In this document: one piece after another, positions 37,849-45,672 of the stretch | Position numbering within the stretch: the stretch's first letter is position 1 | How the letters are laid out: each line of letters opens with the position of its first letter | Origin: Amphirosellinia nigrospora | Taxonomy: Eukaryota > Ascomycota > Sordariomycetes > Xylariales > Xylariaceae | Assembly: GCA_004123355.1 (NCBI GenBank) | Contig: SCHM01000002.1 | Span: 8,839,569-8,903,568 of the forward strand | Direction of reading: 5' to 3' | DNA length: 64,000 nucleotides | Translations under genes and position numbers: made by a program | Notes under the pieces: generated by a model | What the model saw: only the letters and a program-made list of their open reading frames with translations | Databases searched by the model: none | What the model was told of the DNA's origin: nothing

Positions 37849-39978
37849 ATGGTTATCCGTAAATACGAGTTGGAAGCAAAGCTTAAACATGATCTGGAAC
37901 TGGTGCAGAGTGGTGTTTTGAGAGACGAGAATCCACTTGATTCAAGCGAGGCATTCAATGAGCTTCTAGAAGCCTGCCGGAGAGGGGATTTGAAGCGAAC
38001 ACAGGAACTCATATCAGCCGGTGTGAATCTGAACGGAAAAGACAAGTTCGACTATACCCCCTGATTATTGTAAGCTTGAACTGTGTTTGAGGAGACGCCG
38101 GTACCCTTCGACAGAGTACATAGTATCGGGATTAGCTGACCTTGCCGACAGGCGAGTTTGTGTGGCCATTACGAATTAGTTGAACTCTTACTCGAGTCGG
38201 GGGCATTAGCGGAGCGTGACACCTGTATTCTTGGAGCCATTTCCTTGACGTTTTGGTACTTCCATTTTGGGACGTGATGATGTCTAGAAACTTCTAAAAT
38301 CCCTACAATTCACGTTCTCAACGGCAATCACTAACTCTGAGTATTGTAGTTCAGGGCGAAAGATGCATCTACAATGCACTAAATGACAGGATTCGAAATC
38401 TACTCTTGAAATATGACTATTCTAAGTCTACTGATCCTTTGCAACCTTGGGCTGCCCATATCACCTCCTTGTTTGCAAAAATGGTACCTAAGACTTCGGA
38501 TATTACACTCACGGAGGGTACTGAGGCCTTTGAGCTTCACAAATTCATCCTTTCTGCCAGATCACCATACTTCTACGACAAATTTAGAGAAGACCCAGAG
38601 TCGGCCACGTGGAGACTGCCTCTATCAAAGCCCGTTGAGTCTTTTCGAATTGTTCTACGTTATCTGTACCTCGGCGATGTCCCAAGAGAGGTGGTGGATG
38701 CCCGTAGCAATCATACAGAAGAAGAAGTACTCACCGGCATTGACAAGATTAGCAAGCAACTTGAAATACCCAAGTTGTGGGAGGTTATCTTGTCTGGGAA
38801 CGATCGACGGCTGGCAAGGCAGCGCCACCAGGACGAAGTGAACCGAGCTCAGCAGCAAATCAGTAGCTTCTTCGATCAGAAGGTGATCGGTCACAAAGTG
38901 ACTGTCGACACACGGAAAGCGTCCGAGGTGAAATGGCCACATGGTAACTCAATATTCGCAGATTGTCTACTCCGAGCAGACGAAGTTGGGGATATTCCTC
39001 AGGAAGAGGACCAAGAATTGAATTCTATTCCCATCGGCCCAGGCTCGAACTCGAAACCACTAAACGGAACCCCAAACAGGGGAAATCCATCCTCTATCCT
39101 GTGCACAAAGCAATGCTAATTCGAAGTCCTTATTTTGAAACCATGTTTTCCAGCGAATTTATAGAAGCCCAAGAATCCGACCATCTTCACATCATCAAGG
39201 TCGACTGCTCGCCCGCAGTTCTAGAGATCATCCTTCGGTTTCTCTATACGGAGCAGGTGGAATGCCCCTTGGATCTCGCGCTCGATCTACTTTATGCATC
39301 CGACATGCTACTCCTCGAGAAGTTAAAAAGTAAAGCCGCGGTTCTGATCAGCTCGCTCGGCAGCGGGAACAACAACTTGTTGGTTGATCGGACACATAGT
39401 AGCAGTGAAACTGGTGTCGAAGTTGAACCCATCAACGTGTACGATGTTATCCACGCGGCATGGGATTTGCGGGTTCAACGTCTCGAGACGTTCGCGGCCC
39501 GGTACCTCGCCTACCGACTCGAGGACTACATCGATGAGGGAGAATTTGCCGAGCTCATACAAGAAAGCGCGGCAAAGGTCAAAAACAGAGAAGAGACGGA
39601 TACCATCGAGCTGCTTGATGATATTAGATATTACCTAGGAGACCGATTTAGACTGAGGTTCGAGGGGTTCGAGGATGGGGGGTTGGACGAGATGCTAGAT
39701 GAAAGCGGCGAGATAGACGCCGAGGCAGTCGAAGCCTTGTCATCACAGCTTCAGGCCGTAAATGGCGCTGGCGACTTACCAGACCCCTTAACCCTAAGAA
39801 GGCCGCAGCAGCGGCTCCTCCGGAGAGTTTAACAGCTGGCCAAGTCAAGGTTGGCACGGGCGTAAGAACGCTTGACGGGGAACTTGTCGAAGACGAGTTT
39901 GCATCAGATGCCATCAACTATCAAGTATTGTTGCGAAAGATTGACATCATGCTCGAAACGCTCAAATTAGACGCATAG
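37849..39978 (+). CDS. Ankyrin and double BTB/POZ protein, ABTB1-like
   Basis: This is a likely substrate adaptor for a cullin-3 ubiquitin ligase, of the ABTB1/BPOZ type (relative of yeast YIL001W). Exons are 37849-38069, 38152-38224 and 38350-39978, with introns of 82 and 125 bp. Ankyrin repeats run from FNELLEACRRGDLKRTQELI through ASLCGHYELVELLLESGA to IYNALNDRIRNLLL. The first BTB is at AFELHKFILSARSPYFYDKFR, and the second at PVHKAMLIRSPYFETMFSSEF with FLYTEQVE. The C-terminal helix ends LRKIDIMLETLKLDA. Three single-base breaks occur: a C5 run at 38057-38061 where six are expected, one near 39030-39090 between the BTBs, and one near 39800. Confidence 0.85.
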
Positions 39979-40890: not shown

Positions 40891-42061
40891 ATGAAGGTGC
40901 TCTCGGTACTCGGGCGCTGCTCGCAGCTCCCAGCTTTCTACAAGTTCACTCTATTTGGTGTTCTGGCGCTGATTCTCATCGGTGAGTCGGCTCCCTCTCC
41001 ATCTCTCTTGGCCTGGTCACGCACGCGACACGACACAACACAACACATGGATGGACCTCGTTCGTGCCAGTATCTAGCTAACACAAGTGACGCCCCTTAT
41101 AGCTTCACTTCAGACCGGCCCCGTCGACTTTCGGGATCACTGGGATAAGCTCCGGCGTCCCAAGAAGAACGGTCTGGGCCGATGGCATCCCGCTGCGCGT
41201 CATGTTCATCGGCGCCTCGATGACCCTCGGCGAGCACTCGACGGGCGAAAGGGGCTACCGCAAGCAGATCCGGGACTGGCTGGTGTCGCAAGGCAACGAG
41301 GTAAACTTCGTCGGCCAGGTGAGTCTCCCTGTATCCGTGTCCATGTGCATGGAGGTGACGGGTGCTGATTTGGTTGTTGTCCCCCCTTACAGAACCGGTT
41401 CGGTGATTTTCTCGACAACGATGTCCAAGCCTTCGGCGCCCAACCCATCAAGCCAACCCTCGACCGCTGCAAGGAGATCGTGCCCCAGACCCAGCCAAAT
41501 CTGATCCTGATCAACGCCGGCTCGAGCGACTGCTTCCAGCAAAACCACTGGGGGCCCGCCTTCGTCCTGCAGAAGATGCGCGCCCTCGTCGACTACCTTT
41601 TCGAGGCCTCGCCGCGCGCCACCATCATCATGTCGACCATCATCACGAGCCCCTGGGACAATGTCGAGGACTGCGTCACGTCGGCGAACGCGCAGATCCG
41701 ACAGGTTGCCACTGATTTGATCCGCGACGGTAAACCCGTTGTCATGGCCGAGATGCACTACGACCAGGGGCTCCCGAACCGTGTCGAGAGGAAGCATATC
41801 GGCAAGGACGACATGCATCCGATCGACGCCGGCTACTTCCTCATGGGCGATATATTCATCGAGAGTATTCAAGACGTCGAAGAGAAGGGATGGCTTCAGG
41901 CCCCCATCAACAACGGCATCCCGTATGATGGCGAGGCCGAGCGACACGCCGAGGAGGCCAAGAGCGAGAAGCAGATTGCGGAAACGCCACCAGAAGCGGC
42001 CAAAGTCGAGGAGGTGAAGCCCGACGCCCGGAGAAGAAGGCATAATCCATTACCGGAATAA
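40891..42061 (+). CDS. SGNH/GDSL-type hydrolase, membrane-anchored or secreted
   Basis: This is an esterase/lipase-like SGNH hydrolase. Exons are 40891-40981, about 41103-41318 and 41393-42061, with introns of 121 and 74 bp. A hydrophobic helix (FYKFTLFGVLALILI) near residue 20 is a signal anchor. Block I is FIGASMTLGEHS, where the usual GDS is GAS but the nucleophile Ser is kept. Block III is LINAGSSDC (GxxD in place of GxND). Block V is KDDMHPIDAGY with the catalytic Asp and His. The acidic/basic C-terminal tail from about 41.93 kb is disordered. A one-base discrepancy lies near 41120, just after intron 1, or a different acceptor is used. The substrate is unknown; carbohydrate esterase family 3 members look similar. 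Confidence 0.8.
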
Positions 42062-42713: not shown

Positions 42714-42775
42714 ACGAGAACTGCTCCGTTATACATGGGAAACGACGAGAACTGCTCCGTTATACATGGGAAACG
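42714..42775. repeat. Perfect 31-bp tandem duplication at a stop codon
   Basis: The copies 42714-42744 and 42745-42775 are identical 31-bp direct repeats. The minus-strand stop codon of the twin-CX3C gene (TAA at 42762-42760) lies in the copy nearer the gene, and the second copy lies in its 3' region. Confidence 0.9.
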
Positions 42776-45672
42776 CCTGCCCCATTGGAAGAATAGCGGG
42801 CACACCTGGTCGCACATTCAGTGTCACCCTGCTCGACCTCGAACGCGATGTCGGCGCTCTGTAGTTTGACACCGCAGCCGTGCACTGCAACATTCGAGGT
42901 CAGTAACAATTATTTCTAGATCTATTGTCTAGTGGGAGGGAAGAAGGGTTCGAGGTTCACTTACTGCACGCCTCGTAGGTACTGGTCGATGCACCGGCGA
43001 CGGTGTCCGGGTCTTGGTGAAGGGGCCTTCTTTGGGGTTCTTCTCGAAAGGATCTTCGCCTTCGAATGGGAAATCGCGGGTCACCTTCTCGGTGGCCTGG
43101 GCGGCTTCTCTCGTGACAACGACGCCGGAGCCATTGGATTCGTAAGAAGCACATGCAGCCTTGCAGCTCTTCTTGCCCTGAGCGACATCGAAGACGATGT
43201 TCGCAGATTGCCATCTACCGTTGCAATCCTTCATGCAGGCCTCGTAGCTGACATAACCGGCTCCAGTGGTGACGCCGGTGCGGCAGGTCGGAGGGCACCC
43301 GCGACTGGCTCGACGGCTCTCTTGGTCGTGATGAGACCGCCTGCATTCTTGGTGTATTGCGCGCACGATTTCTTGCAGCTCTCCTTGCCCTGGGAGATGT
43401 CGAAGACGATGTTGGTGGACTGAAACTTGCTATGGCAATCCTTCATGCAGGCCTCGAAGCTAGCATAGCCGGCTCCTGTGACGAGTGCCGGTGCCGCGGG
43501 TTGAAGAGCACCAGCGACTGGCTCAACGGCTCTCTTGGCCGTGATGCCCGCTCCTTCAGAAGCGTATGCGGCGCAGGCCTCCGCACAGTCTGATTTGCCC
43601 TGTGAGATGGGGAAGACGATGTCCGCCTGCTGGAACTTTCCCTTGCAGGACTTCACGCACGCCTCAAAGCTCTTGAATCCGGTGCCCGCGGCGAAAGCAG
43701 GGGCATCTTTGGCCGGCTTTCCAGCGACCTTGGCATGGGCGACGGCTTCCTTGTCGTCGTGGGCCTCGCCGTCTTTGTTGTTGTTCAGTAGTTTCCCGGA
43801 GGTGCCATGGCCATCGGTGCTAAGCATTTTGGCGGCATGGCATTTCTCGAGGCATGCTGCCATGCATTGCTTATCGCCCTTCTGGCACTGCGGGTGGCAT
43901 TTCCCGACGCACTCGGTCTTCTTCGGCGGGCCAGTGGCATCGGGTGTCGTGGCGGGCACGGCATGTTCGACAGGCGCAGTTTCGACGGCGTAGACAGCCT
44001 CCACTGGTGACGATGAGATAGCAGAGGAAGGAAGAGCAGAAGCGTGAACCGCTGGCTCTTCGGCGCCATATGCTGCAGCGGAAGTGGCTGCGTGAGACTG
44101 AGCAGGAGCAGTAGCAGAGGCATGGACTAATGGTTCCTCACCAAATGCTGCAACGGAAGTGGCGGCATGAGACTGGGCTGGAGCAGCAGCAGAAGCATGG
44201 ACCAAGGGTTCCTCACCATATGCTGCAACGGAAGTGACGGCGTGGGCCTGGGCGGGAGCAGCAGCAGAGGCATGGACCAATGGTTCCTCGCCATATGCCT
44301 GGACTGGCGATGCAACGGGAGCAACAGCGTGAGAGTAGGCTGACGCATCGGCAACGCGGTACTGTTGGCTGGGACTGATGTTGCGACAGCCTCAACAACG
44401 TGGGAAAAGGCTGGTGTCTCCTCAACGGCATATTCATGTTGCGCCGGCATTGATGTGGTAACAGCTTCAACAACATGAGAGTATACAGGCGTCTCCGCGA
44501 CGGCATACTCATGTTGTGCCGGCATGGACGAAGCCTTGGACGGGATAGCATGAGCATATGCTGGCATCGATGATGTGACGGCTTCAATGAAATGAGAATA
44601 CACTGGCGTCTCTGCGACGGCATATTCATGTTGTGCCGGCATAGACGGGGCCTTAGACGGCATAGCATGAGCGTATGCTGGCATCGACGATGTGACGGCT
44701 TCAATAACATGGGAGTATACCGGCGTCTCCGCGACGGCATACTCATGCTGTGCCGGCATGGACGGGGCCTTGGACGGGATAGCATGAGTGTATACTGGCA
44801 TCGATGATGTGACAGCTTCAACTACATGAGAATACACCGGCGTCTCTGCGACGGCGTACTCATGTTGTGCCGCCGGATGGATGGTGTCACGGACGTGAAA
44901 GCATGTGAAACATGGGCTGGCGGCGTGTGAACGTGGCTTACAGATGAGTGAGTATGAGAAACATGGATTGCAGACGAGGGAACCTTGGAAACGGTGGACA
45001 CGGTATGAGAGATCGGGACTTCGGATGGGATAGCATGGGTGATCACCGGTCGGCTCTTGACCCAGTACTCATCGTTCTTTCCTGGAGCCACGGATGGGAC
45101 GACAACAGGAACAATTGGTGTGTTCTCAACGTGGTGTTCAATCTCTACCGCCGCCGATGGGACAGTAGCAGGATATGCCGGAGGAGTCGCGACGGCATAC
45201 TCGGCGGCTGGCGCCACGGACTGAATTTTCGGTGGCGGTGCGACTGGGAACGTCGAGATCGGGGTCAAAAGAGTCGCTGGCTTCGTAGAGAAGACAGCCG
45301 GAGTAGTCGTGGGACCAAGAGAGGGCAAAGGAGAGACAGCTTCTTCCGAGATGGGCAAGGGTTTCACCCTGTAATCTATGTCAAAGTTAGCATAAGAGAA
45401 AACCAAAAGGCTTGGGCCTTGAGTGGACTCTTGCGATAAGCATTCACTCCTCCCCCTGATAGCGAGAATTGGTGTGCTCGAAATATGTGTGCAAGGCGTA
45501 GGACTTACAATCCCCATTTTCAAGTCCTCTTTTTCCATATTCGCGCCGTGTCGTGGCCTAGCAGCGATGGTAAGTTCATAGTACGTCCGATATTGGGTTT
45601 TCGGGAGACTTACGCGATGGGCTTTGCCATCATCCCCGGGATGAGCCCGGCAAGGATGAATTTGGTCAACAT
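42760..45672 (-). CDS. Secreted repeat protein with four twin-CX3C modules
   Basis: I recognise no family. Exon 1 (45672-45614) encodes the signal peptide MLTKFILAGLIPGMMAKPIA. After a short exon 2 the main exon runs from near 45377 to 42965, an 80-bp intron follows (42964-42885), and the last exon ends at 42760, giving roughly 870 residues. In order come a Pro/Thr/Val-rich region, 39-residue repeats (44487-44837), 25-residue repeats (44050-44277), a CX3CX3C-X6-CX3CX3C element (43911-43840), then four modules of CX3C-X19-CX3C near 43659-43573, 43449-43363, 43237-43151 and 42968-42797. Modules are preceded by (F/Y)EAC and contain (D/N)I(V/A)F and QG. Lys-Arg sits after modules 1 and 2, a possible Kex2 site. 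Frame breaks lie near 43300 and 43000, and exon 2 has one uncertain base. No catalytic residues are visible. Confidence 0.7.
44050..44277 (-). repeat. Intragenic 25-residue (75-bp) repeats, three copies
   Basis: There are three tandem units of 25-26 residues with consensus VHASAxAPAQxHAxTS followed by xAAxGxEEP. A partial unit precedes them near 44300. They lie inside the secreted twin-CX3C gene, in frame with it. Confidence 0.85.
44487..44837 (-). repeat. Intragenic 39-residue (117-bp) repeats, three copies
   Basis: There are three tandem 39-residue units at 44837-44721, 44720-44604 and 44603-44487. Each begins VYSHxxEAVTSSMP, continues with AYAHAxPSKAPSMPA and ends QHEYAVAETP. A shortened fourth unit follows to about 44410 and a partial one precedes. 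The copies differ at only a few residues, suggesting recent expansion. Confidence 0.9.

Follow-up and report, generated by a model that had tools for sequence, protein, structure and literature searches.

The window analyzed here, a stretch of 64,000 nucleotides from Amphirosellinia nigrospora, carries on its minus strand (45672..42760) a gene that encodes a likely signal peptide, a repeat stalk, and four modules of the form CX3C-X19-CX3C, referred to below as M1 to M4 (Table 1). The gene runs from a Met codon at 45672 to a stop codon at 42760-42762, in agreement with the extent assigned to it by a first-pass annotation made from the letters alone, and the order of signal peptide and repeats described there is likewise borne out. 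The signal peptide is considered likely on the basis of a hydrophobic N-terminus that the window gene has in common with four relatives (P0004, P0005, P0006, and P0010). The stalk is rich in Pro, Ala, Val, and Ser and free of Cys; in the same four relatives, in which it was measured, the Cys-free stretch comprises 307 to 492 residues. All three introns obey the GT-AG rule, with intact splice sites. The last of them, as had been claimed, is a phase-1 intron (GTAAGT..TTGCAG, 42964-42885) that interrupts the first CX3C of M4 one base into a codon, and this splice is supported because the corresponding CMHGC is uninterrupted in five relatives (P0001 and P0003-P0006). The gene models P0002 and P0009 terminate in EACSK and EACSKLS, respectively, which is an apparent read-through into the last intron, so its position looks conserved between the window gene and its relatives. 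Absent from the first-pass annotation were a fifth, six-Cys module and several changes of reading frame.

Table 1. Features of the hairpin gene in the window (positions are those of the whole stretch)
Feature	Position	Strand	Support
Exon 1: start Met and likely signal peptide MLTKFILAGLIPGMMAKPI	45614..45672	-	near-identical N-termini in P0004, P0005, P0006, P0010
Intron 1, 56 bases, GTAAGT..TGCTAG	45558..45613	-	flanking residues resemble P0004, P0005 (by eye)
Exon 2; one internal frame change suspected by eye	45509..45557	-	
Intron 2, 133 bases, GTAAGT..ACATAG	45376..45508	-	
Exon 3: repeat stalk, six-Cys module, M1-M3, start of M4	42965..45375	-	intact relatives
Stalk tandem repeat, 117-base unit (39 codons), 3.6 copies	44446..44872	-	
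Stalk tandem repeat, 75-base unit (25 codons), 3.1 copies	44066..44298	-	
Six-Cys module CX3CX3C-X6-CX3CX3C, upstream of M1	43840..43911	-	
Module 1 (M1), CX3C-X19-CX3C	43573..43659	-	
Lys-Arg after M1, from residue 13 past last Cys	43531..43536	-	
Module 2 (M2), CX3C-X19-CX3C	43363..43449	-	
Lys-Arg after M2, from residue 14 past last Cys	43318..43323	-	
Module 3 (M3), CX3C-X19-CX3C; followed by Thr-Arg, no dibasic pair	43151..43237	-	
Module 4 (M4), CX3C-X19-CX3C, first CX3C split by last intron	42802..42968	-	uninterrupted in P0001, P0003-P0006
Last intron, 80 bases, phase 1, GTAAGT..TTGCAG	42885..42964	-	
Last exon: remainder of M4, C-terminus GAGVSHV, stop	42760..42884	-	P0003, P0004 end alike

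At the 3' end of the gene, an exact 31-base tandem duplication (window 42714-42775) extends into the coding end and the stop codon. A gene oriented convergently with it encodes a GDSL-like lipase (41103-42061, plus strand), with an intron placed by eye near 41400 and a second open stretch that scores 31.2 bits, just under the Pfam cutoff of 32.9.

The reading frame of the hairpin gene shifts near 44880, 44350, 43280, and 43030, and probably once more within exon 2 (by eye), and a by-eye comparison with P0001 and P0003 left no space for an intron at the four named places. M1 and M2 lie in one frame and M3 in a second, while M4 starts in the third and continues after the intron in the first; the frame-broken pieces were analyzed unmended and unjoined. 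Two explanations can be considered: (i) uncorrected single-base indels in the assembly and (ii) real mutations in a dying gene. The second is suggested by the presence of at least four frame changes that no intron explains and by long conserved genes that are unbroken in the same assembly, such as the TCP-1 matches at C6:4018175-4019656 and C6:181474-182850. Against it, other HSP70 and TCP-1 genes of this assembly break without intron gaps: at about 10 places (by eye), two matches in different frames meet end to end or share a few bases while profile coverage stays continuous, for example in HSP70 at C7:1399436-1399439 and C8:855846-855849 (within C7:1398639-1400274 and C8:855379-857197) and in TCP-1 at C4:2902675-2902684 and C1:3159471-3159483. 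The intact splice sites also speak against decay, as does an intermodule dN below dS in the two pairs computed (0.42/1.25 and 0.27/1.70), to which little weight attaches with dS saturated. Since conserved genes are broken in this way elsewhere in the assembly, indels are the likelier and simplest cause of the frame changes, and a dying gene is, in our judgment, highly improbable. A two-BTB gene at 38298-39832 (plus strand) of the window seemingly enters its second domain via a frame change near 38950-39119 (by eye).

Protein searches covering about 5.8 billion proteins returned 10 relatives (P0001 to P0010), nine of which come from seven Xylaria species (X. longipes, X. castorea, X. acuta, X. 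polymorpha, X. telfairii, X. nigripes, and X. multiplex), Astrocystis sublimbata, and Nemania diffusa; this range is a lower bound, as the searches were length-bound and partly scored only the best-sharing candidates. X. longipes belongs to the Xylariaceae according to a taxonomy look-up, and we take the other genera to belong there as well. Within the extent of their gene models, all 10 relatives keep the plan of the window gene, whose M1, M2, and M3 find their best cross-species matches in X. acuta, X. longipes, and X. acuta, respectively. None of the 10 contains a Pfam family above the cutoff, which supports a conserved family lacking a Pfam model, and searches of Pfam, NCBIfam, and PDB sequences gave subthreshold matches or none. 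The X. multiplex protein P0010 is named "WSC domain-containing protein" in UniRef, a name that no Pfam WSC match supports. Prokaryote genomes scanned with window M2 yielded no relative, and three queries (window M1-M2, P0008, and P0009) brought up no second copy in the organism's own genome (48.1 Mb, 11 contigs). No description of the family was found in the freely readable literature searched.

The spacing of 19 residues between the two CX3C motifs, reported as exact, is indeed so in M1 to M4 and recurs in 39 of the 43 complete four-Cys modules counted; it is not universal in the family, as three modules of N. diffusa have X16 and one of X. multiplex has X10. The 43 comprise 40 modules from relatives and 3 from the window; the intron-split M4 of the window was left out, as were two incomplete modules, the first of P0002 (truncated) and the last of P0009 (cut off), an off-frame CPPTC row in one window piece was dropped, and six-Cys modules were counted separately. 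When the residues of P0004 were shuffled, at least one CX3C-X19-CX3C module arose in 6 of 20,000 trials, so that the pattern exceeds chance. Nearly all Cys residues of the 10 relatives (214 of 222) sit inside complete modules; of the other eight, four are in the P0002 fragment, two are in P0009 (one being the start of the cutoff module), and P0003 and P0007 each have a single one close to the N-terminus.

The alignment of 40 modules has four Cys and one Gln as invariant residues, and a loop consensus, Q-x-A-x-I-A-F-D-I-S-Q-G, is recognizable in most of them. Such a loop could bind one shared target, which would make the gene a protease-inhibitor or ligand-binding cassette in which any cutting is incidental. 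Some of the alpha-hairpinins of plants inhibit trypsin, their reactive bond lying between the two CX3C motifs (PMC7191063). The fungal loop, however, has no invariant basic residue, the place after its Gly being Lys or Arg in 28 of 40 rows, and the trypsin-inhibitor-like TIL family of Pfam matches only below its cutoff (P0008, 18.3 bits against 24.5; 1 of 40 modules, E = 0.029). We therefore regard this explanation as quite unlikely.

The six-Cys module is found in 9 of the 10 relatives, the exception, P0002, being a fragment. P0007-P0010 have a central spacing of X11, and the window, P0001, and P0003-P0006 have one of X6. The second and fifth Cys of the X11 form are again separated by 19 residues, and therefore the four-Cys module looks like a six-Cys module lacking its inner pair, or the reverse. 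All ten six-Cys modules carry the inner pair, which none of the 43 four-Cys modules has; its members never occur singly. In the module alignment, the X16 deletions and the change from X11 to X6 fall between the inner Cys positions, while the X10 module is shortened beyond them, right up to the third Cys. An inner pair that is never single and the X16 and X6 changes between its positions are as expected of an antiparallel hairpin and its loop, and this comparative evidence suggests nested disulfides.

The predicted structures are in weak accord with such a fold. AlphaFold modeled a single module as two helices, as had been supposed, at a mean pLDDT of only 54; in a longer model M1 and M2 each have three helices, the middle one short, rather than two. 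The six-Cys hairpin came out better in the longer model, with blocks of 72 to 79 pLDDT, and the linkers were disordered (block pLDDT of 26 to 39) between helical module regions. Fold searches with the module models, PDB included, returned no significant match; given the low confidence of the models, no new fold is claimed.

The Lys-Arg pairs described after M1 and M2 are present (Table 1), and they belong to a wider pattern. A dibasic pair starts 13 to 16 residues past the last Cys after 35 of 38 nonterminal modules, at exactly 13 in 29 of them, while 5,000 shuffles of the linkers gave a mean of 2.75 such hits and a maximum of 10; the modules are of common ancestry, so their counts are not independent and shared descent inflates the total. 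The exceptions are M3 of the window and M2 of both P0004 and P0005, the two relatives having a KR further along; the truncated first module of P0002, outside the count, is followed by NR. All five terminal modules (P0001 and P0003-P0006) lack the pair, and the 69 to 607 residues upstream of the first counted module hold zero to four dibasic pairs in each relative. Even proteins with no more than 31 to 37% identity to P0001 in this region keep the position. That such a site follows almost all nonterminal modules favors release by Kex2 over chance occurrence of KR, and the genome has one match to the proprotein-convertase P domain. The 35 pairs consist of 17 KR, 1 RR, 2 RK, and 15 KK, so that the strong KR or RR type follows 18 of 38 modules, and window M3 is followed by Thr-Arg. 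KK is a lesser Kex2 site (PMC6339444). The 15 KK and 2 RK pairs and the three modules without a pair count against release by Kex2, and M3 and M4 of the window might stay joined.

The anatomy of the gene, the family, the Cys pattern, and the dibasic sites are observed, and from them we infer secretion, disulfides, cutting, and activity. On the best reading, which we judge as likely to be right as wrong, the gene product is a secreted precursor from which Kex2 would release helical hairpins tied by disulfides. Its steps would be as follows: (i) the signal peptide would route the precursor into the secretory pathway, with the Cys-free, Pro/Ala/Val/Ser-rich stalk serving as a disordered pro-region; (ii) each four- or six-Cys module would fold into an antiparallel helical hairpin with nested disulfides (outer to outer and inner to inner); (iii) Kex2 of the Golgi would cleave at the dibasic pair 13 to 16 residues past each module, releasing hairpins of about 60 to 75 residues, of which the last may leave joined; and (iv) outside the cell, the hairpins would act as small stable binding peptides. 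The net charge of the four-Cys modules is near neutral, from -4 to +3, and therefore an inhibitory, ligand-binding, or signaling role fits better than membrane lysis, which is not favored. The low fold confidence, the three helices of M1 and M2, and the X10 module shortened to its third Cys count against a hairpin precursor.

The same protein could instead remain uncut at the cell surface or in the matrix, its long stalk displaying a string of hairpins and its dibasic pairs being structural or exposed but unused. The length of the Cys-free stalk in the four relatives and its tandem repeats in the window would suit such a design, and KR or RR is absent from the dibasic place after 20 of 38 nonterminal modules. 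The modules are, moreover, conserved position by position, with 22 of 23 best cross-species matches at the same position, which suggests that each module has its own role; different modules may thus do different jobs within one uncut protein, and this counts against release by Kex2. The seven four-Cys modules of P0007 (X. nigripes) have a mean identity of 0.69, against 0.53 in P0008 and P0010, as if the array arose by recent tandem expansion. Display of uncut hairpins is opposed by the C-termini, which do not look anchor-like by eye: P0001 and P0003-P0006 end 13 residues past the last Cys, in THV, SHV, SHL, or THL. A near-fixed dibasic position in proteins so diverged would also need another cause. 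We consider the uncut surface protein doubtful and retain the Kex2-cut precursor as the working reading.

Among known systems, small Tim proteins have a twin CX3C helical hairpin; they are small, single-hairpin proteins of the mitochondrial intermembrane space without a signal peptide. The arrangement found here, four modules and a six-Cys module behind a stalk, with a likely signal peptide and dibasic linkers, argues against that identity. Precursors of ustiloxin-type RiPPs share repeats of the Kex2 type; this candidate was set aside, as UstYa has no match in the window and 53 in the genome, the nearest on the contig (C4:8064998-8065483) lying about 774 kb from the window, which starts at 8839569. 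The family fits in outline the class of KEPs (KEX2-processed repeat proteins of fungi), which have a signal peptide and repeats parted by KR, RR, or KK (PMC6339444). By inspection, at least three repeats so spaced seem to be present in P0007 and P0008, and in P0009 if RK is allowed; M1 and M2 are the only window modules with such a pair behind them. By arithmetic, the repeat share reaches the 15% minimum of that class, with seven modules, each about 55 residues long, in the 1,023 residues of P0007, or four modules in 614 to 910 residues (P0001 and P0003-P0006). Unlike KEPs, the modules here are Cys rich, domain sized, and position specific, and the window copy has only two that carry a dibasic pair.

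The closest likeness in plan is to the alpha-hairpinins of plants, helix-loop-helix peptides with two or three nested disulfides and with antimicrobial, trypsin-inhibiting, or ribosome-inactivating activity. Their motifs, given in Table 1 of PMC11591084 as CX3C-X4-20-CX3C (4C) and CX3CX3C-X4-20-CX3CX3C (6C), describe all 43 four-Cys modules (X10, X16, and X19) and all 10 six-Cys modules (X6 and X11), and the plant precursors (EcAMP, Tk-AMP-X, Sm-AMP-X, and MiAMP2) likewise join a signal peptide to a cassette of linkered modules, with 5 to 12 modules in one of two precursor types (PMC7191063). The plant peptides of demonstrated activity have loops of 11 to 13 residues (PMC11591084), whereas those of the fungal modules mostly have 19; the fungal family is further set apart by its loop consensus, by the length of its Pro/Ala-rich stalk, and by dibasic sites, whereas the plant precursors are cut by plant proteases. 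A comparison of the module profile with PDB sequences gave two matches (E = 1.5 and 1.8), neither of them a hairpinin. With the plan alike and no kinship detected in that comparison, the family is not filed among the alpha-hairpinins, and the likeness is probably convergent.

To conclude, the gene seems to be a counterpart, in fungi, of the multipeptide defense precursors of plants. Xylaria-like fungi live in wood, plants, and termite nests, and we tentatively suggest, as something that may well prove wrong, that they evolved an alpha-hairpinin cassette independently, whose four- and six-Cys hairpins are cut by Kex2 and used against or towards neighbors in these habitats. If this is true, fungi would encode in their genes a hairpin cassette of the plant kind, which would be a clear case of convergence, and its scaffold would accommodate loops of quite different length and from four to seven four-Cys modules in each precursor. 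Such a precursor would link two literatures, that on Kex2 repeat precursors and that on cysteine hairpins.
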